Assembly: GCF_024584705.1 (NCBI RefSeq)
Contig: NZ_CP097384.1
Span: 1,302,001-1,366,000 of the forward strand
Direction: 5' to 3'
DNA: 64,000 nucleotides
DNA from: Blastopirellula sp. J2-11
GTDB lineage: Bacteria > Planctomycetota > Planctomycetia > Pirellulales > Pirellulaceae
Positions 1 to 63,371 of the stretch are shown piece by piece; position 1 is the stretch's first letter, and every line of letters starts with the position of its first letter. Under the pieces are notes generated by a model that worked only from the letters and a program-made list of their open reading frames with translations, made no database searches and was not told the origin of the DNA. The position numbers and the translations under genes are program-made.

Positions 1-152
1 TGGCACTTGAAACAATGTTGCGCCAATAGCGGGCGCACTTTCGTTTCAAAATAACGAACTGCTTCTTTGTCGTCCGCGCGGATCAAATCTGTCGAAGTCC
101 ACGCAACGGCGAAGATCAGCGGCGCAATCAGGATACGAAAACATTCAGACAT
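1..152 (-). CDS. Planctomycete cytochrome c (PSCyt1) domain protein, partial (N-terminus only)
   Basis: Only the first 50 codons are in the window; the gene continues past the left edge. Reading from the ATG at 152, the product starts with a hydrophobic signal peptide (FRILIAPLIFAVAW, ending near residue 26), followed by a stretch that reads RYFETKVRPLLAQHCFKC. The next codon begins CA, so a CxxCH heme motif is almost certainly completed. This ETKVRPLLxxxCxxCH context is the hallmark of the PSCyt1 domain, which usually precedes DUF1549 and DUF1553 in large secreted planctomycete proteins. It starts 7 bases after the FecR gene ends, so it is probably co-transcribed with the sigma/FecR pair. 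The full architecture cannot be seen. Confidence 0.8.
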   Translation of the reverse strand, partial: MSECFRILIAPLIFAVAWTSTDLIRADDKEAVRYFETKVRPLLAQHCFKC

Positions 153-159
153 GCGATTA

Positions 160-1875
160 CTACTCGGGCAGAGTGTGTGACGTGTTGGCGGGAAGCCCTC
201 CGAGGAAAACCGGATCAATCAAGTTCACGTCATCCAATGCGTCTTGAAAAAAGAGCTCGGAGACTTCGTCACCTTCGGCGTAGCCGAGGTCCGAGAGATC
301 GATTCCTACGGCAATTACTTTGGCAGGGACTTGATGGATATAGCCGCCGTTATGTTTTCCCGACAGCAATTCTTCCACCGATCGGACCGGAGGATCAAAT
401 CGATAGAGGAGGAAACCGGACAATTGATGGGCGCTGCGATGCGCCAACGAGACGTCATATTTACGAACCGTATGCGACCGCAAACCAGGCTCGAAATGGG
501 TCGGCGAGACATGAAACGGATCGCCATTTTCGGGATGCACGACCACGTGCAGTTCAAAGAAGACAATGTCAGGACCGACAGCGTTGATCACCGGTTGGTG
601 AAACCGAACGGCGAAACCAGGCGTGTGTCGAGCCGCGTCGGGACTGGTCCAATCGGGATCTGATTTTAACGGTTTGACGGCGCCCCCAGGGTTGAGCGTT
701 CCGGTCGTGAGCAACGCGTCGCGATCCAACAGCGCCGCTCGAGTTCGTGAGCCGTCTCCTTCACGCGGGTCGGGCCGGTCAAGCGGCGTGCTAAAGTTTG
801 CGCCGTTGGTCCCCGCTTTGAAATGAATCAGATCGAAACCGATCAGTTCTTCGACGTCATAACGTTGAATCTTTCCTCCCCGCTGCACCGTTACGTCCAA
901 TAGAGTGTCGGGCTGCGGATGCTTGCGATCGGTGACGCGATAGTCAACGATGCGATCGGAAAGCGAACCGCGATAGTCGCGATTCATGTCCGAAGCAGGC
1001 GGGTTGGAGATATGACCTTGCGAGTTGATGACGCGTCCCTCGCCGGCGCCTAGTAGCAGTCCAGACAAATCGGGAGCGACGTTGTTGGGCGTAAATATCT
1101 CGGCTTCGCCTTCAATCACATTGACATCCGCTTCGCCCGATTCGGTCACGTTGACCGCGAAACGAGTTCCTTTGTCGACGATCTCAGCCTGGGGCGTAAT
1201 GACGCGAAATCCCTCCGCTCCTGGCGGTGCGTAGACCGAACAGGCGCCTACTTTCATCAACACCTGATCGGCTGAGCGAGCGAGAAATACGGCGGGCGCC
1301 TGGACGATCATTTCGGCGCCGTGACGCGTACGCAACTGAATCTCCCCTTCGACCAGGGCATAGTCATGGTCGAGTTGCAGAACGTCGCCCGCGGACAAAG
1401 AACCAAGCTCGCCAAAGAAACGGCTGTGAGCCGTCTGAATCAAAGTAATCTCGGGCAGCGTTCGCTCCGCCGGGCCGGGGGTTGCAACTTTGGGCGGCTT
1501 GGGTGGATCTTGCTTCGTGACCTGTCGCGAGTTTCCGTTCCAATAAGCGAGCGGCGCCAGGACCAAGCCCGTTAAGCAAGCGGCTAACGCGAGCCAGACG
1601 CGCGGCGATGTTCGCCGTTGCGAAGGCTGCGGCGCACCCGGCAATCCTGCCGGGCGGATCGATTCGGGCAAACCGATCGACGGCTGGCCGGTTTCTTCGG
1701 CCGTCAACTTCGCTAAGCCGTATTCGAGATCGAGCAACAGAAAATAGTTTCGCCGCGCCTCTGCGTTTTCCAGCAGCAGTTGCTCTAGCTCTTGGTGCTG
1801 CTCTACGGTTAACGAAGCGTGCATCGCTAGATGCGTTAGTTCCGCCAACCGCTGAGACGGATCGTGTTGGCTCAT
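160..1875 (-). CDS. FecR-domain transmembrane protein, putative anti-sigma factor or sensor
   Basis: A 571-residue product. The ATG at 1875 was chosen because it overlaps the sigma stop codon as ATGA and gives a clean cytoplasmic start (MSQHDPSQRL); the longer open frame upstream lies inside the sigma gene. Residues 1-60 are helical and resemble planctomycete anti-sigma N-termini. Residues about 93-112 (VWLALAACLTGLVLAPLAYW) form one membrane segment, and a FecR-type domain follows at about 165-265 (EGEIQL..., DKGTRFAV, EGEAEIF). The remaining 300 residues are not a known domain to me but align with the other FecR protein here, ending in LFFQDALDDVNLIDPV. In FecR families the cytoplasmic part contacts the sigma factor and the outer part receives a signal; that role here is inferred from translational coupling. 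Confidence 0.82.
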   Translation of the reverse strand: MSQHDPSQRLAELTHLAMHASLTVEQHQELEQLLLENAEARRNYFLLLDLEYGLAKLTAEETGQPSIGLPESIRPAGLPGAPQPSQRRTSPRVWLALAACLTGLVLAPLAYWNGNSRQVTKQDPPKPPKVATPGPAERTLPEITLIQTAHSRFFGELGSLSAGDVLQLDHDYALVEGEIQLRTRHGAEMIVQAPAVFLARSADQVLMKVGACSVYAPPGAEGFRVITPQAEIVDKGTRFAVNVTESGEADVNVIEGEAEIFTPNNVAPDLSGLLLGAGEGRVINSQGHISNPPASDMNRDYRGSLSDRIVDYRVTDRKHPQPDTLLDVTVQRGGKIQRYDVEELIGFDLIHFKAGTNGANFSTPLDRPDPREGDGSRTRAALLDRDALLTTGTLNPGGAVKPLKSDPDWTSPDAARHTPGFAVRFHQPVINAVGPDIVFFELHVVVHPENGDPFHVSPTHFEPGLRSHTVRKYDVSLAHRSAHQLSGFLLYRFDPPVRSVEELLSGKHNGGYIHQVPAKVIAVGIDLSDLGYAEGDEVSELFFQDALDDVNLIDPVFLGGLPANTSHTLPE

Positions 1876-2426
1876 AGATCGTCTCCTGCAACGGCGAGCC
1901 GCATTTGGACGCATTGGGCCAGCTTGCGGCGAATCGTCGTTAGTTGGTTGTAAAGCGTTTGCGCCGAACGCCCTGTTGCGTCGGCCAAATCGGCCATCGT
2001 CGTTGCGCCCCCATAAGCGGTCCACACTAATTGCTGCTGTCGCGCCGTAAGTTGACCAACGCATTGCCGTAGCGCCAAAAGCCGTTGCGGCTGTTGGTTA
2101 AGCGTCGCAGCTCGATCTTCGGCCAGCAATTCGATCAGCTTTTCGCTGAATTGGAGGCGATCTCGTTGCGCCGTTCGCAGAAAATTTTTGACTTCGTAGA
2201 AGGCTACTCCGCATGCCCAGGAGAGAAAGTCACGCTCGCGATCAAACGTCTCAAATTTTTTCCACAGCAGCAGACTGCATCGTTGGAAGACGTCATCTGC
2301 ATCAGCATGATGCGGCAACATCGAAAAGATGTATGCATGGATCCGCTCGCAATCGGTCGAAAAATACGACAAAAATTCAGTATAGCGAGCGTCGGACGCC
2401 GCATCGGATGGGGTTGTTGCAGGCAT
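1872..2426 (-). CDS. ECF sigma-70 family RNA polymerase sigma factor (Rhodopirellula/Verrucomicrobium type)
   Basis: A 184-residue ECF sigma factor when started at the ATG at 2426; a TTG two codons upstream is possible. Region 2 is evident (HAYIFSMLPHHADADDVFQR, then LLWKKFETFDRERDFLSWACGVAF), and region 4 has a helix-turn-helix (TARQQQLVWTAYGG, ADLADATGRSAQTLYNQLTTI). The KFETFDRERDF and VAFYEVKNFLR segments closely match the second sigma factor at 26517-27056 and fit the planctomycete-type ECF family. Its stop overlaps the start of the FecR gene by four bases, the usual arrangement for a sigma/anti-sigma pair. It lies 158 bases beyond the lipoprotein gene on the same strand. Targets are unknown; autoregulation of the adjacent operon is the simplest guess. 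Confidence 0.9.
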   Translation of the reverse strand: MPATTPSDAASDARYTEFLSYFSTDCERIHAYIFSMLPHHADADDVFQRCSLLLWKKFETFDRERDFLSWACGVAFYEVKNFLRTAQRDRLQFSEKLIELLAEDRAATLNQQPQRLLALRQCVGQLTARQQQLVWTAYGGATTMADLADATGRSAQTLYNQLTTIRRKLAQCVQMRLAVAGDDL

Positions 2427-2583
2427 TGCCAAGAGTGAAATCAGGAGCAGGCGGTAATGTCAGTTTGTTTGTCGTACGGCTCTCTACTTATAGATCGTAC
2501 GTTCGCGCTAGAATCTACTATCAAGAGCCCGGATCTCCCCAAAATTTTGCGAGCGTTCGATGCTTTCAAACCACTCACATCCC

Positions 2584-3015
2584 TCATTTGGCCTTTACTT
2601 GCACGGCAAATTCGTTCTGGCCCGGCTCGACGCGAAACTGCAGATCTGAAGTAGCATAGGAACGATATTTGGCGGGAAAACTGTGAACCACGCCGGTTTC
2701 GCTGTTTTCGCTGGTCGCAGGGCTGACCAAGATCGCTTGATGATCCCCGGCGAGTGCGCCGTCATCCTGGCCGAACGTACTAAGCCGAAACGTTCCGTCA
2801 GATTCGATTTGGCCGCGTGCGTTGATAACGGAGCCATCTTCGGCGGTCGTGCGGAACTCGATCAGTCCGCTTTGGGCGGGCGTACCGTCCGCCTGTAAAA
2901 CTTTGCCGCTAACGGGATGAGTCGGGACGCCAGCTTCGCACCCGATACAAGCGGCCAGGCATAACGCCGCCAAGCAGCTCAGCGTTCCGTAGTTTTTCCA
3001 ATCAATAGATCTCAT
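2584..3015 (-). CDS. Small transthyretin/carboxypeptidase-regulatory-like lipoprotein
   Basis: A 143-residue protein with a lipoprotein signal: positive N-terminus, hydrophobic core LSCLAALCLA and lipobox-like AACIGC with the cysteine near residue 26. The mature part begins VPTHPVSGKVLQADGTPAQS, typical of a short prealbumin/carboxypeptidase-regulatory beta-sandwich found in many planctomycete lipoproteins. It follows two DUF1559 genes, 87 bases after the second, and precedes the sigma/FecR pair. The lipoproteins at 24497-24919 and 59040-59507 share the layout (VSGxVxxxGxPxxxGxIxF) and likewise sit directly behind a DUF1559 gene. The exact role is unknown; envelope anchoring or assembly with the DUF1559 protein is inference. 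Confidence 0.72.
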   Translation of the reverse strand: MRSIDWKNYGTLSCLAALCLAACIGCEAGVPTHPVSGKVLQADGTPAQSGLIEFRTTAEDGSVINARGQIESDGTFRLSTFGQDDGALAGDHQAILVSPATSENSETGVVHSFPAKYRSYATSDLQFRVEPGQNEFAVQVKAK

Positions 3016-3102
3016 GTTTCGAATCGTCCAAAAGCTGAAGTGGTGGTGAAAATAAACCTGAGGAGATTAATAGCCTTCACGCCGTGATGAAGCTCACTGC
3101 CG

Positions 3103-4041
3103 CTAAAAGTCGACCGAAATCACTTCGGAATCTTGCCGATTGGACAAGCGGCCGAGATTGTCGGTATCGATATTCACTTGCAGCGAACGAACGCTGGCGT
3201 CCCCCAGCAGAAAATTGCAAATGCCGGGATGGTAGCTGCCAAAAAGGAGATGCCCTGTTCCAGTTACCACGTCGTTGGGCCCTTTGCCCAGCGCATAACC
3301 TGGTCCGGCAACCCGCATCGTTGAAAAGGCCCAACCGCTGAAAATCGGTCCATCGCCACCGGTCGTTTCGTCTTTCAGCGCTGTCAGCGGAATATGCCGC
3401 TCGCCCATTAAAATGGTGTTGCTCAATCCGTCGACGATCGCCGCCAGATTGGTTTGGCTTTTGTATCGATTGTGGTCGCCGAAAGCGCAGACGAGCATTC
3501 CCATCGAAGTGGAGCACGGCTGCGTCACGGAGAGGGCCGGCGAATAGCCGGAACCGCATCGATAGGTGCTGCCGTCGCCAGAGCTCCCGTCGCAGGCGGC
3601 GTAATCCCACACTGCTCCATTATCAGCCGTGTCGGGCTGAACGACTTCGGTCAAATCGCCCAGTTGATGGCGACTCGGACAGACGTAAACCGAAATCGGC
3701 GTTTGTTGGACGGCTGCCGATTGCTCGCTGTACTTTTTCTTCAGGTCGAGTTGATCGTAAAGATTCTGCTGCTCGATAAACGGCAGAATCAGCGCCGACC
3801 AACCGAGATATTTGAACTCGATCCGCGAAGGAGGAAGTTCGTTGTACGTGTCGTGGAAATTGTGAACCGCCAACCCCATTTGCTTTAAGTTGCTCAGGCA
3901 CTGCGTGCGCCGGGCCGCTTCACGCGCCTGCTGCACCGCCGGCAATAACAGCGCGATCAACACGCCGATAATCGCAATGACGACTAGCAATTCAACCAGC
4001 GTAAAACCGCGGCGTAAAATTGCGCGAGTGAAATAAGGCAT
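3103..4041 (-). CDS. DUF1559 prepilin-like protein (type IV pilin N-terminus)
   Basis: A 312-residue protein starting at the ATG at 4041; the longer open frame upstream would put 34 unconserved residues before the leader. The leader is short and basic (MPYFTRAILRRG), with the prepilin peptidase cleavage site at G12 before FTLVELLVVIAIIGVL, then PAVQQAREAARR. These are the hallmarks of DUF1559. The body has the usual NLKQMGLAVHNFHDTY, ILPFIEQQNLYDQ, DGLSNTILMGER and a C-terminal His-containing segment, HPGICNFLLGDASVRS. The family version of the last motif is H-x9-DG; here the glycine is alanine. Cleavage would give a pseudopilin-like surface protein. It is the downstream half of a tandem pair with 4146-5033; both end in EVISVDF. 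Confidence 0.9.
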   Translation of the reverse strand: MPYFTRAILRRGFTLVELLVVIAIIGVLIALLLPAVQQAREAARRTQCLSNLKQMGLAVHNFHDTYNELPPSRIEFKYLGWSALILPFIEQQNLYDQLDLKKKYSEQSAAVQQTPISVYVCPSRHQLGDLTEVVQPDTADNGAVWDYAACDGSSGDGSTYRCGSGYSPALSVTQPCSTSMGMLVCAFGDHNRYKSQTNLAAIVDGLSNTILMGERHIPLTALKDETTGGDGPIFSGWAFSTMRVAGPGYALGKGPNDVVTGTGHLLFGSYHPGICNFLLGDASVRSLQVNIDTDNLGRLSNRQDSEVISVDF

Positions 4042-4145
4042 GATCGACCGCCTAGAATGCAAAAGATAAGACGAAGAAGAAATGAAATTATCTCGACTGC
4101 TCAGCGCGTGCTCTCGCCGCACTTGGCCAACTTGCATTTTCACGC

Positions 4146-5033
4146 CTAGAAGTCTACCGAAATGACTTCCCCATCTTCGCGATTCGCCAAGCGGGCGAGA
4201 TTCTCCGTATCAACGTTGGTCTGGATCGAACGGACGCTGGCGTCTCCCAATACAAAGTTCGAAACGCCGGGGTGGTAGCTGCCGAATACTTCGCGGCTCG
4301 ATGTCGTATCATTCGGCCCTTTCCCTAAAGAACGTCCCAGACCCGCCATGCGCATTGAGGAATAGGCCCAACCGCTCAAGACGGGGCCATCGCCGCCGTT
4401 CGTTTCGTTCAAGAGTTTGGAGAGGGGAACGTGCCGCTCGCCGATCATAATCGTGTTGCTTAAGCCGTCAGTAACATCCCGCATGCCGGTCACGCTTCTG
4501 TATTTATTCTGATCTCCGTCCGCGACGATCAGCATTCCGGTGCAAGTAATCATGCGAAACGTGCTGCCGACTCCGTCTCCGTCACAATTCGCGTAATCCC
4601 AGGCGGCGCCCAGGTCAGCCTGATCCGTTTGCGCTTCAGTCGTCAAATCGCCAGCAGAGTGACGACTGGGGCAAATGTAGCCGCCAATCGACGCCTGTTG
4701 GACCGCGGTCGTCTGATCTTTGTACGGCAGTTTCAAATCGATCTGATCAAACAGATTTTGCTGTTCCATGAACGGCATGAGCAGCGCTGACCAGCCGAGA
4801 TAATTCGCTTTGATGCGCGACGGCGGAAGGTGGCCGTAGGTGTCATGGAAGTTATGCACCGCCAGACCCATTTGTTTCAAATTATTCATGCATTGCGACC
4901 GTCGCGCCGCTTCGCGCGCCTGTTGCACCGCAGGCAGCAGCAACGCGATTAAAACGCCGATAATCGCAATGACAACGAGCAGCTCAACAAGGGTAAAGCC
5001 GCGGCGGTAAGTTGCTGAAGATGGTTGGGCCAT
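4146..5033 (-). CDS. DUF1559 prepilin-like protein (tandem paralogue)
   Basis: A 295-residue protein started at the ATG at 5033 (MAQPSSATYRRGFTLVELL); a further upstream in-frame start would add 27 residues before the leader and is not favoured. It carries the prepilin cleavage site G12/FTLVE, the hydrophobic helix and the PAVQQAREAARRSQCMNNLK signature. It closely matches the neighbour at 3103-4041 throughout (LGWSALLMPFMEQQNLFDQ, YICPSRHSAGDL, GWAYSSMRMAGLGRSLGKGPND, HPGVSNFVLGDASVRS), so the pair arose by tandem duplication. The neighbour has an extra cysteine-containing insert of about 15 residues in the middle. This is the first gene of the minus-strand series running toward the sigma/FecR pair. 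Confidence 0.9.
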   Translation of the reverse strand: MAQPSSATYRRGFTLVELLVVIAIIGVLIALLLPAVQQAREAARRSQCMNNLKQMGLAVHNFHDTYGHLPPSRIKANYLGWSALLMPFMEQQNLFDQIDLKLPYKDQTTAVQQASIGGYICPSRHSAGDLTTEAQTDQADLGAAWDYANCDGDGVGSTFRMITCTGMLIVADGDQNKYRSVTGMRDVTDGLSNTIMIGERHVPLSKLLNETNGGDGPVLSGWAYSSMRMAGLGRSLGKGPNDTTSSREVFGSYHPGVSNFVLGDASVRSIQTNVDTENLARLANREDGEVISVDF

Positions 5034-5682
5034 GAGGGGCTCTTTCACTGAATAGGAGAAAATGATGGGTGCGTCTGAAAAATGAAAACCAACGGCGCCA
5101 AACTGCCACATCAAGATAGGCTCCCCAGTAGCGGGGCTTTTGTCCGGCGCGAAAGCGCCTCTCGCTTCGTGTCGTGATACGGAGCGAGAGGGCTGGTTTA
5201 TAAAAAAAGGAAAAATTCAACTGGCATCCTAAGGTCGTACGCGCCGGCGCGAACCTACTACGATTGAACGGAAAAAGGAGAAAAATATTTCTCCGAGTGG
5301 AAAATAACAGACCAATCAACCCGCAGAAGGCTGTGAAAACCGGCACTTCGCTCTATCTAGCCCCTTTGCTCGTCTCTCGTGCTCCAAGAGAGCGTATATC
5401 GTAGGCTCAGAAAAATCGTCGGCGAAACGCCATTCCCTCGCAGTCAAATAGAGGGGGGGGCGATGGTCGGCGCCTTTGTGGCTGGGCATAGTGATCCCAG
5501 CAGGCCGGTGAGAACTTCGATCGTCGCCGGTTTTCCGGTGTAATCGCCCAAAGAGAATTCGTTTCGCAAACGTGTGCCGACAGGTATTAAGTTAGCCGAG
5601 GAGAGGCAACTAAGTCTGTGAATCGAAGAAGCTGAAGCCGGCTTGTGACTAATTGCAAGCCGGCTTTTGAGTTCGCTGTCGA
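5034..5682. other. Gene-free stretch (649 bp)
   Basis: Lies upstream of the DUF1559 tandem and downstream of the giant surface-protein gene, both on the minus strand. No supportable gene is seen. It holds a strong stem-loop at 5635-5668 (listed separately) and a run of eight or nine G at about 5452-5460. It should also carry the promoter for the DUF1559 genes, but no convincing promoter elements could be picked out by eye. Confidence 0.6.
5635..5668 (-). terminator. Stem-loop terminator of the giant surface-protein gene
   Basis: Perfect 11-bp arms (AAGCCGGCTTG and CAAGCCGGCTT) with a 10-base loop, starting 15 bases beyond the stop codon of the 5683-15834 gene. On the minus strand the bases after the hairpin are only moderately T-rich (CAGCTTCTTC), while the plus strand has TTTT, so it may act in both directions. 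Position and stem strength support the call. Confidence 0.6.
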
Positions 5683-15834: not shown

Positions 15835-16041
15835 GTCGATCGTTCGCCTTCGCTAGAAGATAATGCCTATTTGAGTTCATCGTTAGGCTTTCCCAAGCTG
15901 GCCAAACCTGCCGATAATCACGCTTACTCCGAAAGTAGCGAAAATAACGACTGGGATGTTTGGGAAAGATTTCAGTGCGATGTTAACCTAAATGGGGGAG
16001 TTATCAAGCAGTTTCCTGAGCATACGAAGAGAGCGGCGCAT

Positions 16042-16078
16042 AAAAAAAACGGAGCCTTCTTGGTAAAGAAGGCTCCGT
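16042..16078 (-). terminator. Rho-independent terminator of the outer-membrane protein gene
   Basis: On the minus strand a perfect 13-bp stem (ACGGAGCCTTCTT paired with AAGAAGGCTCCGT) with a 4-base loop is followed directly by eight T. It starts 38 bases beyond the stop of the 16116-17285 gene and separates it from the giant gene downstream. Confidence 0.92.
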
Positions 16079-16115
16079 CGCAATTTTTGCCGTTATTTTG
16101 GTGTAGTGGTCGTTT

Positions 16116-19573: not shown

Positions 19574-19642
19574 GGATCAAATTTCTCGAGGGCGTTGAAA
19601 GAACTGCCAAGGCGTCTAATATTTCGGGCGGCGCATCACGAA

Positions 19643-21073
19643 CTAGCTGATTCCTAGAATCTTCGATTCTGCACGCCCTTCGTTCATATCGATCCGCTCT
19701 GGGCGCCCCTTATGTCGATAAATCAGCTTCGTGTGATCCATTCCCAAGGCTCTAATGATTGTCGCGTGCAGGTCATGCACATGCATTGGGGTTTCAATTG
19801 CTCGCAGGCCAAGCTCATCCGTCGCCCCCACGGTACGTCCCCCAGTGATGCCGCCGCCAGCCATCCACATGGTGAACCCGGTGGGGTTGTGATCGCGGCC
19901 GCTCCCTTTCTCGGACATCGGCGTGCGACCAAATTCTCCCCCCCAAATCACCAACGTCTCATCCCATAGTCCGCGGCGTTTTAGGTCTTTCAGCAAGCCG
20001 GCGATCGGTTTATCGACTTCTTTGCAGAGCTTGCCGTGGTTGCCTTCGATGTTGTTATGAGCGTCCCACCCACTACCGGCTCCACTGTAGAGCTGAACGA
20101 AACGTACGCCGTTTTCGACCAGCCGCCGAGCCATCAGGCAATTGCTGCCGAAGACATTCGTTTCTTTTTGATCGATTCCATACAACTGCTTCGTCTCTTC
20201 CGACTCAGCGCTCAGGTCGACGATGCTCGGAGCGGCTGACTGCATGCGGAAGGCCAGTTCGTATGACTTGATTCGTGCTTCCAGTTCCGACAAGTCGCTG
20301 CGCTCGTCCGCGTGACGGCGATCTATTTGATTCAAGAAGCCGAGCTTCGCCTTTTGTCGCGCGGCCGTAATGTGACTGGGAGGGTTTAGATGCAAAATAG
20401 GATCGGAGCCCGATTTGAATTTAACCCCTTGATAAACAGCCGGCATGAAGCCGTTGCCCCAATTGCGGGGACCGTTGACCACTTGCCTGTTGGAGTCGGT
20501 GAGTACTACGAAGGCAGGCATGTCTTGATTCTCGGCGCCCAAGCCGTAAGTGGCCCACGCTCCGAGGGACGGCCGTCCGCCGATCACGTGCCCTGTGTTC
20601 ATTTGGCACACCCCCGACGAATGATTGATGCCGTCCGAAATACAAGAGCGGATCACGCACAAGTCATCGGCGCACGTGGCGATCTCGGGGAACCAATCCG
20701 AGACCCACAGGCCGCTTTCGCCATGCTGCTTCCATTTGCGGGGGCACTTGAGTAGCGGAGCGTCGTTTTCCCCCATCGCCAGAACGACTTTGCCAAAGCT
20801 CTCGGGGATCTTCTGCCCGGCTAGTTTGTTCAGCAACGGTTTGGGGTCAAACAGGTCGATGTGACTCGGTCCCCCTTCCATAAAGAGGAAGATTACATTC
20901 TTCGCCTTGGCGGGGAAGTGGGGCGCCTTGGGAGCTCGCGGGTCTTGCGAGACGGCGGCTTGTCCAGCGCCGCCCATCAAAGCGGCTAAGGCCAAAGCGC
21001 CAAAACCGCCGCCGGACTTGGCTAGGAATTCTCGGCGTGAGGTGGGGACTTCGATGTGCGGTTGGTGGGTCAT
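19643..21073 (-). CDS. DUF1501 family protein with Tat signal
   Basis: A 476-residue member of DUF1501, a sulfatase/alkaline-phosphatase-fold family almost always encoded beside PSCyt1/DUF1549/DUF1553 genes in planctomycetes. The N-terminus has a twin-arginine signal (SRREFL at residues 12-17, then GALALAALMGG), so it is exported folded. Family motifs include NVIFLFMEGGPSHIDLFDPK, GVCQMNTGH, GAGSGWDAHNNIEGNH, WGGEFGRTPM, GRDHNPTGFTMWMAGGG and VHDLHATIIRALG. The Asp/His-rich motifs would bind metals. Its start lies 30 bases after the large cytochrome gene, so the two are co-transcribed. The biochemical activity of the family is unknown; the fold suggests hydrolase or transferase activity. Confidence 0.92.
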   Translation of the reverse strand: MTHQPHIEVPTSRREFLAKSGGGFGALALAALMGGAGQAAVSQDPRAPKAPHFPAKAKNVIFLFMEGGPSHIDLFDPKPLLNKLAGQKIPESFGKVVLAMGENDAPLLKCPRKWKQHGESGLWVSDWFPEIATCADDLCVIRSCISDGINHSSGVCQMNTGHVIGGRPSLGAWATYGLGAENQDMPAFVVLTDSNRQVVNGPRNWGNGFMPAVYQGVKFKSGSDPILHLNPPSHITAARQKAKLGFLNQIDRRHADERSDLSELEARIKSYELAFRMQSAAPSIVDLSAESEETKQLYGIDQKETNVFGSNCLMARRLVENGVRFVQLYSGAGSGWDAHNNIEGNHGKLCKEVDKPIAGLLKDLKRRGLWDETLVIWGGEFGRTPMSEKGSGRDHNPTGFTMWMAGGGITGGRTVGATDELGLRAIETPMHVHDLHATIIRALGMDHTKLIYRHKGRPERIDMNEGRAESKILGIS

Positions 21074-21103
21074 CGGATTTCTCGCTAAGGAGGGCGTGTT
21101 CGC

Positions 21104-24100
21104 TTAATCGATGAATTGAAATTCGCTGGAGTTCAACAAGACATGGCAATAGTCGCTAAGGGCGATCAATATGGAGTTCATGTCGCCTCTGTCCGAACGG
21201 TTCGAGAGCTGCAATTCGTGCTTGCCTCCATCCGTATCAGAAAGGGGGCCGTGCGGATCGGAACGAACGAATCGCCACATCGCCACGGTGTCGTCGGTTG
21301 TCAGGTCATTGGGGGAATTGATCATGAGCTGCGATTCGTCCAGGATCGCTTTCTGCGTCAAACGGATGTCGTCAATCAGGCCGTCCCAATTGTGCGGACC
21401 TTGGGCATCGCGTCCGCCAATGCTAAACCGCAGAGAATCGCTGCTACAGTCACCGACGATTGAGTGTTTTACGACGACCGTTTCGAGTTCCGACTCGTCG
21501 TAGGACATGTCGCGGGCATAAAACGTGGCCGTGCCGGCATCGAAGTCGACGGCGGCCGCGACATAGTACGGCTTATCGGCGGGTATTCGCAGATTGGACG
21601 GAACAACTTCGTACTTCACCTTGCCCTCCTTGTCGTCGCCAATTAGTTGCAGAACCAAATTCCGCGGACGATAGGCTGACTGCTCGCTAGTAATGCCAAA
21701 GTTCCAGCCAGGCGTCGTCAACGCCCCATTCCACTGCGCGGCGATTGTGCGAACCGTTGCGCCGGGAAAAAGAGTTCGATTGAAAACGATCGCTTCGATG
21801 GTGAAGTTGCGAGCAGGGAGAACCCGGTTGTCCGGTAACGTCAGGAGCTGATGCGGCGTTTTGTCACTGATGTTGAACGCCGTACTCCAACGCTGCATCT
21901 GTGGTTCGTCCAGTAGGACTGTTGAAGGGAGCTGCTCATATTTTGCGTTCGAGAGATCGCGGTTAGTGACAACTTGATCTTCGATGAAAGCGACTGCAGC
22001 TTCCAGTTCTTCCGTACGCGGAGGACGACCGAAACAGACTTGGTAACTGTCGCGAACCATCGCCGCGTAGTCGGTTATATATTGTTGCTTAAGGCGCTTG
22101 GCCATGGCCTCGGCCCGTTTGAGCGTCCAGTCGCCGTTGATCATCAACAGGGACTGCGTGGCCGTCGTGGTCGAGTTACGCAATGCGACGCTTGAGAACC
22201 CGCTGGGGGCATCAAAGCTATCCAGCAAGGCATCCGGTGAATTTCGCATCTTCTTGGTATAGACGCTGCGAACGGGACTGTTGCTGGAAGCGGGAGGGCC
22301 GCCCGGCTTGTCGGAAAGCTCGCCGCTGGCAGCCAGCATCGCGTCGCGAATCTGCTCCGCTTTCAATCGATGGGACGGAAATCGCCACAGTAATCGATTC
22401 TTAGGATCAACCAGCTTGGCCTTTTCCGGTACGTCAATCAACGACGACTGCTGATAGGCGGCCGAAAGGAGAATCTCGCGGTGCAGCGGTTTCAGTCGCC
22501 ATCCATTTTCGATGAACTGGCTGGTCAGCCAATCCAACAGTTCGGGATGGCTCGGAGGTTCGCCCAACCGGCCGAAGTCGCTGGCGCTGGAAGAGATGCC
22601 CGCGCCAAAGTGATACTGCCAAATGCGGTTGACGATGACGCGGGGAACCAAAGGGTTGTCGTCGCGTGATAGCCACTTGGCCAGCGTTGCTCGGCGTCCG
22701 CTCGTGCTTGCGGCAGGTAGGCTCGCAGGATCGATCTGGGCCGGTTCGGGGTGCAGAATAGTCAGGAATCCAGGCTTGATCTCGCGTTTGTCGTGGTCAT
22801 CGGGTTTGATTGTGGGAGGAATCTCGCCGCGTGCATCCGTCGCGATGCTGGCCATTGGGGGAGCTGTGGGCTTCGACTTCAAGAAGGCTTGCACTTGCTT
22901 CTTCAACTCCTCCCACTTCTGCTTGTCATCTTTGGGGATCGCCCCGCTCAGTCGTCCATACTCAAATTTGACCTGATCGTAGACCAAGTAGTAAATCTGG
23001 TTTTCATACGCATTTCGCTCTTCGGCCGGTTTCCAGTAGATGGCCTGGACTTCGGAGGGGAACATTTCGACCGCTTTGCGTTCCACCTTTTCACGAGGCC
23101 TGGCTTCGATGTTAGCGATCTGATCCAGCAAGTCCTGATGCTTGGCTTCCCACTGGGCGAGCTTCGCTTCGTACTCTTTCAACTCTTGCTCACCGCACAG
23201 CGGGTAGTCGTCTTTCCAGACCAGCGGCTTGAAAAAAGCTTGCAGGCGGTAGTAGTCGTCGTGCAGGATGGGATCGAACTTGTGGTTGTGGCAATGAGCA
23301 CACGCGATCCCCATGCCCAGGAAGACGTCGCCGACGGTGTCGGTCAGTTCGTCCGCAAGCAGAACTTGCTGGCCCTCAGCATCTCGGCTGTTCCATTCGT
23401 ACACGCCGCCGCGCAGGAAATAGGTGGCGATCAACGCGTCGGGATCATCGGGTGCGATTTCGTCGCCAGCCAACTGTTCCTGCATAAATTGCCGATACGA
23501 CTTGTCGTCATTGAAGCTGCGAATAACATAATCGCGATAGCGCCACGCATTCGGTCGAAAGGCATCTTGACGGTAGCCGTCTGAATCGGCGTAGCGAACC
23601 AGGTCGAGCCAGTGCGTGGCCCAGCGTTGGCCATAGCGAGGATCAGCCAAGATAGCGTCCACTAGCTGTTCGTAGGCGTCTGGGCTGGTGTTGTTCACGA
23701 ACTCCGATATTTCCTCGGGCGTTGGCGGAACGCCAAGCATGTCAAAATAAATGCGCCGAATTAATTCGCGATCAGCAGTTGGAGGAGCCATTACAAGCCC
23801 TTCCGCCGCAAGCTTCGCTTGGACAAAATTATCAATCGGATTTTGCACCAACGCACCGGAAACAACTTTGGGCGGTGGTGGACGCAACACGGGCTGGAAG
23901 GCCCACCAGTCGCGATCTTCCTGGGTGAATACGTCATCTTCTCGCGCACCCTCAGGATGCTCAGGCCAATAGGCGCCATTACTGACCCAGGTCTCGAGAA
24001 TTGAAATCTGCTCGCTAGAGAGTTGCTTGGAAGGGGGCATCTCGTAACTCTCATACTTAATCGCGGCGATCAACTCGCTATCTCCCGGCATGCCGGGGAC

Positions 24101-24334
24101 AACAATCGCCCCTCCTTCACCTCCCTTGAAAAAGTGACTGCGCTGATCAAGTCGAAGCTTTGATTTCTGCTCGCGCGGGCCGTGGCAGCTAAAACAATTC
24201 GCAGCCAATATTGGGCGCACTTTCGATTCAAAGAAGTCGCCACTTTCTTTCTCTCCTGCAGAGAGGAGATTGGAGCCCAGCAAAGCCCCGAGAAGCGCCA
24301 GGAGCGGCGTGAGCCGTTTGTATGTGATCGACAT
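21104..24334 (-). CDS. PSCyt1 / DUF1549 / DUF1553 protein with a LamG-like domain
   Basis: A 1076-residue secreted protein. Signal peptide at 1-26; PSCyt1 domain with CFSCH heme motif at 47-51 followed by KSKLRLDQR; DUF1549 at about 155-370 (NPIDNFVQAKL, YGQRWATHWLDLVRYADSDG, ACAHCHNHKFDP, which is a second CxxCH); a coiled or charged linker; DUF1553 from about 545 (LAKWLSRDDNPLVPRVIVNR, DFGRLGEPPSHPELLDWL). Between about 835 and 1015 there is a concanavalin/LamG-like beta-sandwich (FTIEAIVFNR, NWDGLIDDIRLT), after which the protein ends with the usual DUF1553 tail (YCHVLLNSSEFQFID). So the lectin-like domain sits inside the DUF1553 C-terminal part. Probably an exported heme protein acting with the adjacent DUF1501 protein on a polymer. 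The reaction is unknown. Confidence 0.92.
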   Translation of the reverse strand: MSITYKRLTPLLALLGALLGSNLLSAGEKESGDFFESKVRPILAANCFSCHGPREQKSKLRLDQRSHFFKGGEGGAIVVPGMPGDSELIAAIKYESYEMPPSKQLSSEQISILETWVSNGAYWPEHPEGAREDDVFTQEDRDWWAFQPVLRPPPPKVVSGALVQNPIDNFVQAKLAAEGLVMAPPTADRELIRRIYFDMLGVPPTPEEISEFVNNTSPDAYEQLVDAILADPRYGQRWATHWLDLVRYADSDGYRQDAFRPNAWRYRDYVIRSFNDDKSYRQFMQEQLAGDEIAPDDPDALIATYFLRGGVYEWNSRDAEGQQVLLADELTDTVGDVFLGMGIACAHCHNHKFDPILHDDYYRLQAFFKPLVWKDDYPLCGEQELKEYEAKLAQWEAKHQDLLDQIANIEARPREKVERKAVEMFPSEVQAIYWKPAEERNAYENQIYYLVYDQVKFEYGRLSGAIPKDDKQKWEELKKQVQAFLKSKPTAPPMASIATDARGEIPPTIKPDDHDKREIKPGFLTILHPEPAQIDPASLPAASTSGRRATLAKWLSRDDNPLVPRVIVNRIWQYHFGAGISSSASDFGRLGEPPSHPELLDWLTSQFIENGWRLKPLHREILLSAAYQQSSLIDVPEKAKLVDPKNRLLWRFPSHRLKAEQIRDAMLAASGELSDKPGGPPASSNSPVRSVYTKKMRNSPDALLDSFDAPSGFSSVALRNSTTTATQSLLMINGDWTLKRAEAMAKRLKQQYITDYAAMVRDSYQVCFGRPPRTEELEAAVAFIEDQVVTNRDLSNAKYEQLPSTVLLDEPQMQRWSTAFNISDKTPHQLLTLPDNRVLPARNFTIEAIVFNRTLFPGATVRTIAAQWNGALTTPGWNFGITSEQSAYRPRNLVLQLIGDDKEGKVKYEVVPSNLRIPADKPYYVAAAVDFDAGTATFYARDMSYDESELETVVVKHSIVGDCSSDSLRFSIGGRDAQGPHNWDGLIDDIRLTQKAILDESQLMINSPNDLTTDDTVAMWRFVRSDPHGPLSDTDGGKHELQLSNRSDRGDMNSILIALSDYCHVLLNSSEFQFID

Positions 24335-24496
24335 CGGAATCTCTAGCTAGATAAAAAGGACGCATCCGTAGAACACGAGGCGATTCTCGTAAGCCAGTCA
24401 TTACGCACTCGCCATAGGTGCGCCCGGCTCCCTCTAGAGGAAGTCGTTATATGCGAGTACGACGGCGCCGTTGGCGACGGAAAACGACTAGGCGCG

Positions 24497-24919
24497 TTAC
24501 TGAGCCAGTTCAAAATTGAGTGCTGAAGATTGACCGGCTTCAATGGTTATTTTCTGCTCGTAGCCAACCACTAACGCATCTCCATTCGGCTTGAGATCAG
24601 GATCAATATTCTTTAACGAATAGGCGTCGATCGTCACGATGTAAGCCCCGCTATTGATGCCGTTGCCGCTCACATCGGTGTCATAACCGCCTTCGCGTAC
24701 CTCCGCAAAGCCAACCTCCCCACTACCGCCCTTGGACGCGTCTGGGGTGAACTGGATTACTCCGATCGGGACAGGCGCTCCCTTAAAGGTGACGCTGCCG
24801 AAAGCCCTGTCTTGCAAAGGACCATTGCCGCCACATCCCGGAGTGATTACTGCAAGACATAATAGAACAGACATGTAGAAACAGGTACGGATACATGTCG
24901 ACAAACGTATTGCAGGCAT
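24497..24919 (-). CDS. Small transthyretin-like lipoprotein downstream of DUF1559
   Basis: A 140-residue product started at the ATG at 24919 (MPAIRLSTCIRTC), which places the hydrophobic core MSVLLCLAVI and lipobox ITPGC correctly; a start 15 codons upstream is possible but less likely. The mature domain reads GSVTFKGAPVPIGVIQFTPD ... GGYDTDVSGNGINSGAYIVTIDAY, a short beta-sandwich shared with the lipoprotein at 59040-59507 and, more distantly, with 2584-3015. It lies between a DUF1559 gene and the PSCyt1 gene, all minus strand; a terminator-like hairpin separates it from the DUF1559 gene. Confidence 0.75.
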   Translation of the reverse strand: MPAIRLSTCIRTCFYMSVLLCLAVITPGCGGNGPLQDRAFGSVTFKGAPVPIGVIQFTPDASKGGSGEVGFAEVREGGYDTDVSGNGINSGAYIVTIDAYSLKNIDPDLKPNGDALVVGYEQKITIEAGQSSALNFELAQ

Positions 24920-24948
24920 AAAACGCCGCCCTCGGTTGATAAGAATGG

Positions 24949-24994
24949 AAAAAACGAGCGGCAAGATTCTCGGAAGAGGCCGAGAACTTGCCGC
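24949..24994 (-). terminator. Stem-loop with T-run between DUF1559 and lipoprotein genes (attenuator or partial terminator)
   Basis: On the minus strand the arm GCGGCAAGTTCTCGG (24994-24980) pairs with 24973-24958 around a 6-base loop, with one bulged base, and is followed within three bases by TTTTTT. It starts 12 bases after the DUF1559 stop. Placed inside a likely operon, it would lower read-through into the lipoprotein, PSCyt1 and DUF1501 genes and yield more DUF1559 transcript. Confidence 0.8.
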
Positions 24995-25006
24995 CTGACG
25001 AATGAA

Positions 25007-25942
25007 CTACAGCGCGGTATTTATTTCTCCACCATCTCGACTTGCAAACGCCAAGTAGCTAGCCATATCGATCGTCTCCGGGAGAAACCGAACGCTTCCA
25101 TCGCCGAGCGCAAAATTGGCGCCGCCTGGATGATGACTGCCGAACGCCCCCACGTTATTAAATCCGGTATACACGGCGCCGGTGCTTCGCAAGCCAATAT
25201 TGATCGGCCACTTAATGCTCTTGTACGAATACCCCACATAGCCTGTGGAACCGCCGCCGTTCACTGTTCCCATCGTATATTCGCGGTATCCGCCATAGTC
25301 ATTCCAGCAGATCTCGCCAAATACGGCCGTGTTAGACAATCCGTCCGTCATGCCTGCAAACGTGATCGGTTTCCGAAGGTCGTTCGTACAAAGAGTAAAC
25401 GTGCCTTGCGTTGCAAACTCACCCAGGGTTAGCGAAGAGTGGAGGTTGTAATTCTCGCCTGTCGTTCCGTTCGCACCAACGGGCCCCAAGATGCCATAGT
25501 AGTGCGTAGTATAGTGCTCGACGCGACTGGTGTCGGTCCCGCTGTAATGATCCTGCGTTCCGCTTGGGCAGCGAAGGTGTGGCATGGGAGCGCTTTGATT
25601 GAGGGCGTAGTTGTCAGCCGAGACGCATGATTGATCAAAATGGTACTGGTCATAGAACGCCCCCTGTTCCATGAACGGAGCCAACTGGGTCCAGATGCTA
25701 ATTCCGACAAAGCTTGCCGTGCCATAGGCGGCCGACGGAATCTTGTTATGCGTATCGACATAATTGTGCAGCGCAAGGACCGCCTGTTTCATCTGATTAG
25801 TGCATTGCATTCGACGCGCGGCTTCTCTCGCCTGCTGAACTGCCGGTAACAGCAGGGCGATCAACACGCCAATAATTGCGATGACCACTAATAATTCGAC
25901 GAGCGTAAAACCTCGCGATTTGTCGTTCATGAAACGATTCAT
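25007..25942 (-). CDS. DUF1559 prepilin-like protein
   Basis: A 311-residue protein with ATG at 25942 (MNRFMNDKSRGFTLVELL; the second methionine at residue 5 is an alternative). Prepilin cleavage site G11/FTLVE, hydrophobic helix, PAVQQAREAARRMQCTNQMK, then the family body: QLAPFMEQGAFYDQYHFDQ, GMTDGLSNTAVFGE and a canonical H-x9-DG motif (HHPGGANFALGDGSVRF). First gene of the minus-strand cluster with lipoprotein, PSCyt1, DUF1501 and SGNH genes. It is transcribed away from the second sigma/FecR pair, with 574 bases between, so this intergenic region probably contains promoters for both directions. Confidence 0.92.
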   Translation of the reverse strand: MNRFMNDKSRGFTLVELLVVIAIIGVLIALLLPAVQQAREAARRMQCTNQMKQAVLALHNYVDTHNKIPSAAYGTASFVGISIWTQLAPFMEQGAFYDQYHFDQSCVSADNYALNQSAPMPHLRCPSGTQDHYSGTDTSRVEHYTTHYYGILGPVGANGTTGENYNLHSSLTLGEFATQGTFTLCTNDLRKPITFAGMTDGLSNTAVFGEICWNDYGGYREYTMGTVNGGGSTGYVGYSYKSIKWPINIGLRSTGAVYTGFNNVGAFGSHHPGGANFALGDGSVRFLPETIDMASYLAFASRDGGEINTAL

Positions 25943-26516
25943 AGAAGGGAGCCTTTATTGGTAAAAATGAAGAGAGGGGGATGAATAGCGGCCACTAGAT
26001 GAAAGGCTGCGGGGGTTCACGCGCCTAACGTCACTAGTAGTCGTACAGAGCGACCGCCTTCTCTGTGATAAAAAACAAAGTTTTTTAAAAGAATCCAATG
26101 GTCCATCGAGGGCTTTGCTTCGCCGAAATGACGAATCAAAGGGTCGGATTGCGGTATTCGTCTGCGGGGTGCGACTTTTTCGTCGCTGCTGAGATGATGC
26201 GTTATTGGGAACGAGGTTCAGTGCTTGCCATGCTGCACGCGGATGGATTTCCGTCGACAGCGGCCTAAAGCTCGCTGTCTCTCCGTTTCTTGCCTGAGCG
26301 AGATTTTTGCTCCGCAAGTCTTCTCCCGGTTCAAGCGTGCCTGTTCGAACGGTTCATTGCAATTTGAGCAAGCGTCGAAATCGGAGCATACTTTTCAGGG
26401 GAAATTTCATCAGAGAACTGTCATCGGCCGTACGATACCTTCCAGAGAGGAGTGAAATCAGAGAATATCGGGCGAGGGGCCTTGTGTCGCAATCAGCCGA
26501 AAAGTGAAAGAGTTGA
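25943..26516. other. Divergent intergenic region (574 bp)
   Basis: Separates the DUF1559-lipoprotein-PSCyt1-DUF1501-SGNH cluster (minus) from the sigma/FecR pair (plus). No gene or repeat is supported. As it faces two divergent transcripts it is the best candidate region for a promoter recognised by the adjacent sigma factor, but no pair of boxes could be assigned by eye. Confidence 0.55.
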
Positions 26517-27056
26517 ATGAATCAGCGGTCAACAAGTCAAAGGTTTACTGAGCAAATCACGGTACACCGGCGGCAATTGTATGCATTCATTTACTCCATC
26601 GTGTCAAGCCATGCCGATGCTGAAGATATTTACCAACGCAGTTGCATGGTGATCTGGGAAAAATTTGACGAGTATGATTCCGAACGAGGGTTTCTTCCTT
26701 GGGCGATGGGCGTTGCGTTTTACGAGGCCAAAAACTTTATGCGTCGCTCTTCGCGAGACCGGCATTATTTCTCGGAAAAGCTCGTGGAACAACTCTGTGA
26801 CCAAATGGCTTCTTCTCAAGATGAACAAGATGTATTTTTGGCATCTCTCGAGCGCTGCTTGAAAAAGTTGCCCGAGGACGATTTGCAACTCATTCACAAG
26901 GTCTACTGGGAGAGGTCTGACTTCTCGTGCCTTGCAAAAGAATTGGGAATCCTGATCAACTCGCTCTACGATCGTTTGTGGCGATTGCGAACCAGATTGA
27001 GGAAGTGCATATCGCTTCGCTTACTAGATGGAGTGCGTCATGGCAAACGAAGCTGA
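26517..27056 (+). CDS. ECF sigma-70 family RNA polymerase sigma factor (second copy of the type)
   Basis: A 179-residue ECF sigma factor. Region 2: QLYAFIYSIVSSHADAEDIY and VIWEKFDEYDSERGFLPWAM; then VAFYEAKNFMRRSSRDRHYF; region 4: LPEDDLQLIHKVYWERSDFS, followed by LAKELGILINSLYDRLWRLR (helix-turn-helix). It is clearly homologous to 1872-2426, including the KFxxxDxERxFLxWAxGVAFYExKNF core. It overlaps the start of the FecR gene by 17 bases, so the two are translationally linked. The divergent DUF1559-led cluster is the likely target; this is inferred from position only. Confidence 0.92.
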   Translation: MNQRSTSQRFTEQITVHRRQLYAFIYSIVSSHADAEDIYQRSCMVIWEKFDEYDSERGFLPWAMGVAFYEAKNFMRRSSRDRHYFSEKLVEQLCDQMASSQDEQDVFLASLERCLKKLPEDDLQLIHKVYWERSDFSCLAKELGILINSLYDRLWRLRTRLRKCISLRLLDGVRHGKRS

Positions 27057-28680
27057 AGAGAATCAAGAGTTCGCCAAGCTTTTGAGTCGTCTGGTGAATT
27101 CTCCACTTGATAAAGAAGAGACGGAGGCGCTTGAGGAATTGCTGCTTGATCGACCAGAGCGACAACGAATCTATCTCGAGTACGTATGGCTAGATTCATA
27201 CCTTCTGGATTTTGGCCAGCAAGTTTCCAGAGGGTCGCTTGATCGTCCTGTGCCGGCAAATTCATTAAGACGCGGCATGTTCGCTTGGGGCGGGTATTTG
27301 GTGGCTGGATTGTTGTTTGTTGGCGGCTTTATCGCTTACCAATATCTGGGCGAACCGAAGATGCCTTCTGATGTTCCCCTTACAGCTTCTGCAAGTAACC
27401 CGCCGCCAACACAGACTCCAGTGGCTTCTCGCGAAAATGCCGAATCATTCTCGAGCGCGAAATTTGATAGCGACTATCGTGCGGTCTTTCGTCAGGCGCC
27501 TTCTTCGACGACGCGAGGAGGCCGACTCGTATTCCAGAAAGACTACGTCCTGCAAGCTGGCATGACGAAAATTGAATTTGAATCGGGCGCTGAAGTCGTT
27601 TTAAGTTCCCCGGCAGTCTTTCATGTCGAGGGTAATAACAAGCTTTCAATCAGCTTGGGAAGTTGCTCCGTCTTCGCGCCTGAGGGCGCCCAAGGATTTC
27701 AAGTGGTTACTCCGACAGGTAATATCCTTGACCTGGGCACGAAATTTTCTGTCGCTGTTGAAGAGAATGGCGCAGCGAGCGTCGCCGTCGTCAGCGGAGA
27801 AGCGGAGGTGAGTATTCCGAACCGGCAAGCGAAGAAGATCCTTCAGGAGGGAGAATTCGCCCGACTCGACACGAGCTTGCAGATTTCCGATGAAGTCGAT
27901 GAATCTCAGCGTCGAGACAATTATGATTTGACCATTCCTGATCACATTGTGTCGTATAAATCGGTGCTTGATGAAACAGGAAGATCGGCGGAGCTTGCGG
28001 CTCTTACCGTGCAAAGAGATGGAGTTCATCGCACCTACCAGGCGGAAGATCTAATTCTGCCAGCGGTCACGCACTATCTCTCTCCTATAATTAACAACTC
28101 CATTGTTCCTGCTTCTGCTGGTCCCGAGGAATACGTTCGCCTAGGGCCGATGGATTTGTCTTTCACAAGAGGTTTCATCAATCCAGGAGGCAGCGAGTCG
28201 CTTCACCAAGGGGCTTTTGAGTTTGGACCTGACGGCACGCCAGGGATGAATATCGTTTTTTCTCAACCAGTCGTTAACTCGCCGGGGCCGGACATCATTC
28301 TATTTGATGTGCAACTGATTACCCATTCGCTATTGGGGGACATATTTCGACTGTATCCCATTTCTGATTCGGATGAAGCTATCCCAGTAATCATCAAAGA
28401 ATATGATATTGACGGGCAATCGAACGCCGCTCAGACAATCTCGACAAGTCGTCTTGTGCCATTGAGTTCAGAACGCTTTGAAGACGGTACGCCAATGCCG
28501 ATGTCGGAGCATTCGCAAATTGAATTTACGATTCCATGTCGCATTTTTACGGTTGGGATTGATCTCGACGACATGGGCATTCCACCAGGCGGCACGATCA
28601 AGGGATTTTTTCTCCAAGATGTCTTGGATGATGAAAATTTCATCGATCCTGTTGTCATCGTTGGACTTCCACCTTGTTAA
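27040..28680 (+). CDS. FecR-domain transmembrane protein, putative anti-sigma factor or sensor
   Basis: A 546-residue product started at the ATG at 27040, which has GGAG at the right distance; an ATG four codons upstream is also in frame. Residues 1-60 are helical and acidic (NEAEENQEFAKLLSRLV). One membrane segment lies at about 81-101 (FAWGGYLVAGLLFVGGFIAY). A FecR domain follows (MTKIEFESGAEVVLSSPAVF, GAQGFQVVTPTGNILDLGTK, VVSGEAEVSI). The C-terminal 250 residues align with the first FecR protein: LTVQRDGVHRTYQAEDLI, FSQPVVNSPGPDIILFD, TVGIDLDDMG and FFLQDVLDDENFIDPV. Topology predicts the cytoplasmic N-terminus meets the sigma factor and the large C-terminal region faces the periplasm. 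The sensed ligand is unknown. Confidence 0.84.
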   Translation: MANEAEENQEFAKLLSRLVNSPLDKEETEALEELLLDRPERQRIYLEYVWLDSYLLDFGQQVSRGSLDRPVPANSLRRGMFAWGGYLVAGLLFVGGFIAYQYLGEPKMPSDVPLTASASNPPPTQTPVASRENAESFSSAKFDSDYRAVFRQAPSSTTRGGRLVFQKDYVLQAGMTKIEFESGAEVVLSSPAVFHVEGNNKLSISLGSCSVFAPEGAQGFQVVTPTGNILDLGTKFSVAVEENGAASVAVVSGEAEVSIPNRQAKKILQEGEFARLDTSLQISDEVDESQRRDNYDLTIPDHIVSYKSVLDETGRSAELAALTVQRDGVHRTYQAEDLILPAVTHYLSPIINNSIVPASAGPEEYVRLGPMDLSFTRGFINPGGSESLHQGAFEFGPDGTPGMNIVFSQPVVNSPGPDIILFDVQLITHSLLGDIFRLYPISDSDEAIPVIIKEYDIDGQSNAAQTISTSRLVPLSSERFEDGTPMPMSEHSQIEFTIPCRIFTVGIDLDDMGIPPGGTIKGFFLQDVLDDENFIDPVVIVGLPPC

Positions 28681-63177: not shown

Positions 63178-63371
63178 CAGTCGTAATCACTCTGGGAAAA
63201 TGTAGGGGTTCGAATTCCGCACCGCGTTTCCTAACATTTGCGGCGCTGGCAAGTCAAATATTGTCGGTTGACATTGCGCACGGCCTGCTGGTTGACTGAG
63301 AGGTCTGGCGGTGTGCGCGCGTGGGCAGTGCATCGGCGGGACGGGAGGAGAACGGGATGCGCATGATCCAT

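Follow-up and report, generated by a model that had tools for sequence, protein, structure and literature searches.

The window analysed here, 64,000 nucleotides of Blastopirellula sp. J2-11 (G000:C1:1302001-1366000, from a single-contig 6.43-Mb genome), contains two loci at which a gene for an extracytoplasmic function (ECF) sigma factor overlaps a gene for a FecR-type anti-sigma/sensor protein and lies beside genes for DUF1559 prepilin-type proteins, a small lipoprotein and a PSCyt1/PSD1-type heme protein. At each locus, the sigma operon and the DUF1559 operon carry one common promoter-like site. It is proposed, with a probability of about two in three, that the modules are FecI/FecR-like switches, each driving its own operon and a DUF1559–lipoprotein operon, likely on a glycan signal. 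We infer the regulation, the signal and the roles of the DUF1559, lipoprotein, PSD1 and DUF1501 proteins as follows. Each module would be a transmembrane switch in which FecR, through its N-terminal helices, keeps the ECF sigma factor bound at the inner membrane and its periplasmic part detects a signal, the likeliest candidate being a glycan or a partner bound to one. Once the signal is detected, the sigma factor would be released to transcribe the operon in which it lies (sigma and FecR, plus a PSCyt1/PSCyt2/PSD1 protein and DUF1501 where these exist), together with a DUF1559–lipoprotein operon that may be adjacent or lie elsewhere.

Locus 1 lies on the reverse strand throughout, in the order DUF1559-DUF1559-lipoprotein-sigma-FecR-PSD1-DUF1501. 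The two DUF1559 proteins (4146..5033, gene 1, with N_methyl and H-X9-DG motifs, and 3103..4041) match PF07596 at 174 and 164.1 bits, respectively. The lipoprotein (2584..3015) was assigned to a carboxypeptidase-regulatory-like family from its lipobox and the family alignment, with no match of its own in a Pfam scan of the protein. The sigma factor (1872..2432; TIGR02989, 142.2 bits) is of the Sig-70_gvs1 type, and its frame shares an ATGA overlap (1872/1875) with that of FecR (160..1875; PF04773, 30.6 bits, and alignments). The start of the heme gene occupies 1..152, and the remainder lies beyond the window edge; the full frame in the genome has 1097 residues, with PSCyt1 at 1301844-1302014 and PSD1 at 1299804-1300514. 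DUF1501 is the next gene, beyond the window, in the genome scan.

At locus 2, a Sig-70_gvs1-type sigma factor (26517..27056; TIGR02989, 138.1 bits) and a FecR (27028..28680, with a possible start at 27040; PF04773, 25.5 bits, and an AlphaFold2 model) are encoded on the forward strand by overlapping genes (27028/27056). Divergent from them on the reverse strand are a DUF1559 protein (25007..25942; PF07596, 162.6 bits), a small lipoprotein (24497..24919, frame open to 24964; lipobox PGC and family alignment), a PSCyt1-PSCyt2-PSD1 protein that has two CxxCH motifs and ends in a LamG domain (21104..24334; Pfam and a model), a DUF1501 protein (19643..21073; PF07394, 534.3 bits) and, as the last gene of the cluster, a GDSL-type hydrolase (18179..19573; PF13472, 47.8 bits). 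Both sigma factors exceed the curated TIGR02989 cut-off of 124.55, both FecRs pass the PF04773 cut-off, and all three DUF1559 proteins of the window are above the gathering cut-off and have a prepilin N-terminus and the H-X9-DG motif. A preliminary description of this DNA had placed all five families at each locus, on one strand at locus 1 and with the sigma/FecR pair divergent from the rest at locus 2; the frames and the Pfam and TIGR02989 matches confirm both statements. A sulfatase gene (28897-30714, forward strand) follows the locus 2 FecR in the same orientation; with its likely start at 29218 the gap is ~540 bases, and it could be a member of the module.

The promoter-like site of locus 1, TAGTAG-N14-GTACGA, occurs exactly before the sigma gene (2495..2520) and before the DUF1559 operon (5235..5260), both on the reverse strand. 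Only three exact copies were found in the 6.43-Mb genome, the third being ~80 bases before an unlinked DUF1559–lipoprotein pair at 6216361, and a one-mismatch copy precedes another such unlinked pair, at 4424631, by 195 bases. The form GTAR-N14-GTACGA has 13 genome sites; 2 of the 11 outside locus 1 lie <300 bases before DUF1559 genes (chance ~0.0015). The site of locus 2, CAGAGA-N13-GTACGA, is likewise exact before the divergent DUF1559 operon (26041..26065, reverse strand) and before the sigma gene (26411..26435, forward strand); a third exact copy in the genome lies across the predicted start of an unrelated gene and is probably due to chance. When the window was scanned with a -10 model built from nine sigma promoters of other genomes only, the locus 2 DUF1559 site ranked first among ~128,000 positions (chance ~0.002), with the sigma site of that locus in seventh place. 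Control of the divergent DUF1559 cluster by its sigma factor is thereby supported, computationally. In a comparison covering 20 of 27 homologous sigma factors of the genome, the two from the window were 51% identical in region 2, the highest of 19 comparisons (next 49%), and 26% identical in region 4, which fits a common -10 and a different -35. A single GTACGA element for all modules was considered and rejected, as the element is in a suitable position at both genes in the two window modules only.

To place the two loci in the context of the whole genome, TIGR02989 was searched against the complete sequence. Of the 54 matches, 23 were above the cut-off and 27 scored at least 100 bits; these 27 are the sigma factors referred to below, and the remaining 27 weaker ECF matches served as a control. 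The chance model consisted of 2000 circular shifts of the listed Pfam matches, the DUF1559 list covering 150 scored of 226 candidates. At a distance of up to 2.5 kb, 19 of the 27 sigma genes have FecR (shift mean 0.4) and 14 have DUF1559 (shift mean 2.8); at up to 5 kb, 11 have PSCyt1 (shift mean 1.9). None of the 2000 shifts reached any of these counts. PSD1 accompanies 6 at up to 5 kb (shift mean 1.7; 15/2000), a weaker excess than for the other families. With profiles built from the genome itself for sigma, FecR, DUF1559, lipoprotein, PSD1 and DUF1501 (the PSD1 label also takes in looser relatives), 20-kb regions around the 27 sigma genes contained FecR in 27, DUF1559 in 24, lipoprotein in 23 and PSD1 in 9 cases within 5 kb, and 14 control windows at fixed, author-chosen coordinates contained 0, 3, 2 and 0. 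A FecR-like gene follows all 27 sigma genes by this profile, and Pfam (E 0.001) recognises 20 of them. The DUF1559–lipoprotein order recurs before, after or divergent from the sigma genes. The preliminary description had proposed that co-occurrence be compared with chance; by shifts and fixed windows it is far above expectation for FecR, DUF1559 and PSCyt1, and the sigma/FecR linkage is real and more extensive than was stated there. The sole module without DUF1559 within 8 kb is that of sigma 4772999, where the gene after the sigma factor (L056:5119-9774, reverse strand) encodes a 1551-residue protein that is FecR-like by our own profile only and has a PQQ_2 match.

The locus 2 FecR was modelled with AlphaFold2 at a mean predicted local distance difference test score of 84.6. 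The model has helices at residues 5-24, 29-39 and 43-68, a long helix at 83-106, which by eye was taken as the membrane helix, and beta domains after residue 141. Its best fold match was the Parabacteroides anti-sigma factor BDI_1681 (4m0n; probability 1.00, 133 columns), a match that presumably runs through the FecR domain; a PDB sequence search with FecR gave no match. Across the genome, 10 of the 27 FecR genes carry carbohydrate-binding-type domains (LamG in 8, CBM96 in 2). The neighbours of other modules include PSCyt3-DUF1552 pairs, a Gfo/Idh/MocA oxidoreductase, a flavin adenine dinucleotide-dependent oxidoreductase and a 3-keto-disaccharide hydrolase, as well as a cyclophilin, a glycerophosphodiesterase and others; part of this set suggests sugar oxidation, and the domain content of FecR suggests a glycan signal. 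The polymer-acquiring surface apparatus envisaged in the preliminary description was not borne out, these domains and neighbours giving only a hint of glycans. A general envelope or oxidative stress response, in which FecR would sense the state of the envelope and the diheme-type protein would handle redox stress, is fairly unlikely: the presence of 27 copies in parallel, their FecR ectodomains differing, is easier to reconcile with many ligands than with a single stress, and the carbohydrate-binding-type domains and sugar-oxidation-type neighbours also argue against it, although the ECF gene RB10049 of Rhodopirellula baltica rises under heat, cold and salt (PMC2754498).

The proteins that a freed sigma factor would bring to expression were characterised by alignment and fold comparison. 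In an alignment of 24 members of the lipoprotein family, the cysteine at the lipobox is invariant, and 11 of the 24 matched PF13620 (carboxypeptidase regulatory-like) at E values up to 0.1, the best being 4.7e-8. All three domains of the locus 2 PSCyt1-PSCyt2-PSD1 protein were above cut-off, and its two CxxCH heme motifs are found in 22 of 23 aligned sequences. The best matches in a fold search with the model of this protein were lectin- and laminin-type domains, which presumably stem from its LamG part; the search gave no match naming the core of the protein. PDB sequence searches gave no match for PSD1 and two chance-level matches for DUF1501. In three sigma/FecR modules (L036, L051 and L052), a PSCyt-type gene followed by DUF1552 replaces PSD1-DUF1501. 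A further arrangement was seen at L211 (genome 6206602-6210707, reverse strand), where a weaker ECF sigma gene (83.6 bits) is followed by a gene for a 746-residue PSD1-type protein and then by DUF1501; by eye, the N-terminus of the PSD1-type protein resembles a cytoplasmic anti-sigma region, possibly a sensor-PSD1 fusion.

Promoter elements were also compared across species. In 78 regions preceding homologous sigma genes of other genomes, three classes of two-block element with near-fixed spacing recur, partly among close relatives: GTARN-N-[TC]GTACGA (~9 of 78, by the -10), a GTAACC-N-TGCCAT-like element (~11 of 78) and GTAAAA/GTTAAA-N-GGAGATA (~18 of 78). Two-block elements that recur between species in this way appear to be of the autoregulated ECF promoter type. 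Five loci (L073, L074, L081, L107 and L110) have the same element class before the divergent DUF1559 gene as before its sigma gene. A set of 19 sigma–DUF1559 pairs was then assembled in which the DUF1559 gene is divergent from the sigma gene or, for locus 1, heads the upstream operon. Eight of the 19 share an element, a number reached by 2 of 20000 reshufflings of partners, and none of 24 other pairs did so at the same score.

Conservation of the gene order was examined starting from the two FecRs of the window, which form, with those of modules 2529618, 578115 and 6081569, a subclass with a common C-terminal domain in the alignment. PSD1 and DUF1501 are nearby in 5 of 5 modules of this subclass vs 5 of 22 other modules (Fisher 0.003). 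A scan of named genomes with the five FecRs confirmed 127 loci, of which 80 entered the comparison, a number of these lying on short contigs. In the 41 loci of closer relatives, sigma directly precedes FecR in all 41, PSD1 directly follows FecR in 30 and is present anywhere in 36, and DUF1501, DUF1559 and lipoprotein genes were found in 31, 16 and 9. The 39 distant loci were grouped by hand into 6 planctomycete and, by title, 33 verrucomicrobial loci; PSD1 directly follows FecR in 30 of the 33, and no DUF1559 or lipoprotein gene was detected in any of the 33 with the own-genome profiles, for which counts in distant genomes are lower bounds. Within the same order, genome G021 has FecR at 23 and DUF1559 at 20 of 26 sigma genes within 5 kb, with DUF1559 in 2 of 10 control windows, and in G020 and G014 FecR is near 13 of 15 sigma genes, with PSD1 and sulfatases near some (26 of 31, 9 of 10 and 6 of 7 sigma matches were taken from G021, G020 and G014, respectively, omitting the weakest).

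The block sigma-FecR-PSCyt1/PSCyt2/PSD1-DUF1501 thus occurs in Planctomycetes and Verrucomicrobia. It looks like an older operon, and DUF1559–lipoprotein like a second, lineage-dependent block, because PSD1 is kept and DUF1559 is missing or variable in distant loci and related genomes. One five-family unit is ruled out by the verrucomicrobial loci and by the absence of PSD1 within 8 kb in 16 of the 27 own-genome modules; judging by gene order, the supposed unit is two blocks attached independently to one sigma/FecR switch. Of the functional unit put forward in the preliminary description, the co-occurrence above chance therefore stands, as do common promoter-like sites (by computation), but its five-part composition does not. 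The modules also seem to turn over fast, because neither FecR has a close copy in the three same-genus genomes searched and the nearest relatives of the locus 2 protein, at 47-48% identity, are in Pan216 and a Gimesia metagenome-assembled genome. No close orthologue of either FecR (E up to 1e-40) was found in 24 other genomes searched, the best identities outside the own genome being 43% and 35%. Two other module regions of the genome can be aligned in segments with Blastopirellula marina DSM 3645, at 80-93% DNA identity and for the most part at 85-90%.

Several results weigh against the proposed control of DUF1559 by the switch. In the test of 19 pairs, the -35 anchors and the score threshold were picked after inspection of the data, locus 1 entered with its second-nearest DUF1559 gene, as operon head, and locus 2, whose -35 is without the anchors, scored nothing. 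Ranking the pairs across the full distribution gave no significant difference (p 0.089). The eight shared elements among the 19 pairs are therefore taken as support, not proof, given the post hoc anchors and threshold, the position of locus 2 outside the eight and the rank test. A free two-block search over 25 modules found 13-14 of 14 positions in 7 of 25 matched vs 31 of 300 mismatched pairs, a weak difference, and most of the 27 modules are without a recognised common site. The locus 1 sites do not rank in the window scan with the out-of-species -10 model, and 40 further own-genome regions hold three sites that outscore the locus 2 DUF1559 site. When at most one mismatch is allowed, the locus 1 site occurs 16 times in the genome vs 78 for the reversed pattern, and its looser GTAR form 13 times vs 30 for the reversed-pattern control. 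DUF1559 was found within 8 kb of none of the 15 sigma genes in the related genomes G020 and G014. As to FecR itself, 7 of the 27 FecR-like genes were recognised by our own profile alone, and the fold search gave no confident match for the C-terminal beta sandwich.

In an alternative reading, control by the sigma/FecR pair would end with the sigma-FecR-PSD1-DUF1501 operon, with DUF1559–lipoprotein adjacent for other reasons, such as shared gene mobility, and the common sites arising by chance. This is unlikely. The homologous operons that are without DUF1559 in all 33 verrucomicrobial-titled loci and in 25 of 41 closer relatives (some on short contigs) are in its favour, as is the want of a strong promoter statistic across all own modules; it is opposed by the matched elements at the five loci named above and at both window loci, by the first rank of the locus 2 DUF1559 site under the out-of-species -10 model and by the third exact locus 1 site, which precedes an unlinked DUF1559–lipoprotein pair. 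That adjacency to sigma/FecR merely reflects the abundance of DUF1559 and PSCyt/PSD genes is highly improbable: DUF1559 is frequent (151 scored matches and 226 candidates across 6.43 Mb), and one lies within 5 kb in 3 of the 14 fixed windows, but the corresponding 24 of 27 sigma genes differ from this at a Fisher value of 3e-5, the circular shifts argue against chance for FecR, DUF1559 and PSCyt1 (less firmly for own-genome PSD1), the 27 weaker ECF matches show no excess of FecR, DUF1559 or PSCyt1 within 5 kb (FecR 0/27, PSCyt1 0/27, DUF1559 4/27 with a mean of 5.3, and PSD1 4/27 with a mean of 1.7, not significant at 206/2000 shifts), and PSD1 keeps its place directly after FecR in another phylum.

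A switch driving both its own and a DUF1559–lipoprotein operon would resemble the FecI/FecR(/FecA) system in that an ECF sigma gene is overlapped by fecR and in that the best fold match of the FecR model is an anti-sigma factor. It differs in that a Pfam scan of 16 proteins from the two loci and their flanks revealed no TonB-dependent transporter, in the large C-terminal domain of FecR and in its partners, DUF1559–lipoprotein and PSD1-DUF1501. The sigma factors belong with Sig-70_gvs1 (TIGR02989), a family of Rhodopirellula and Verrucomicrobium, whose model listing names neither partners nor promoters; the linkage and the sites are described here. Sigma/anti-sigma loci for glycan use in Bacteroidota likewise consist of many parallel ECF/anti-sigma pairs beside surface proteins. 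The modules differ from these, and from polysaccharide utilisation loci, in that neither SusC/SusD nor glycoside hydrolases were found among the 16 scanned proteins, which include one sulfatase, beside locus 2; DUF1559–lipoprotein might take the place of SusC/SusD, by analogy only. Possible, though doubtful, is a wider scheme of ~27 parallel insulated glycan channels, with one FecR ectodomain per polymer, a private -35/-10 for each sigma factor and DUF1559–lipoprotein pairs, drawn from up to 226 DUF1559 candidates and distributed over these regulons, as substrate-specific surface parts replacing SusC/SusD or TonB receptors.

A published precedent is RB10049-RB10051 of Rhodopirellula baltica, for which Studholme et al. 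are cited as proposing that the ECF factor RB10049 regulates the PSD1/PSC2 (PSCyt2) protein RB10051 (PMC2754498). The available portions of that account make no mention of FecR, DUF1559, a lipoprotein, promoter elements or repetition of the module. PSCyt genes have been described (PMC5615132) as having conserved neighbours and a function called unknown, and the word "sigma" is absent from the main text of that paper. DUF1559 is given as the largest paralog group of Planctopirus limnophila, with two essential members, in PMC10632474. No account tying sigma/FecR to DUF1559 was found in the literature searched, as far as the accessible text extends. DUF1559 and PSCyt/PSD are large planctomycete paralog families of unexplained function, and a named switch with a predicted promoter site would open the function of the DUF1559, lipoprotein and heme genes to ordinary tests through the FecR ligand or the freed sigma factor.

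Two other features of the window were noted. Directly upstream of locus 1, a reverse-strand gene (5683-15834) encodes a 3383-residue surface-type protein that, by eye, contains almost identical internal repeats, each a few hundred residues long, and a dockerin-like region at its C-terminus. Near the far end of the window, at 63371-63813, a tandem array with a period of 108 (4.1 copies, 91% matches) lies within overlapping frames on both strands.

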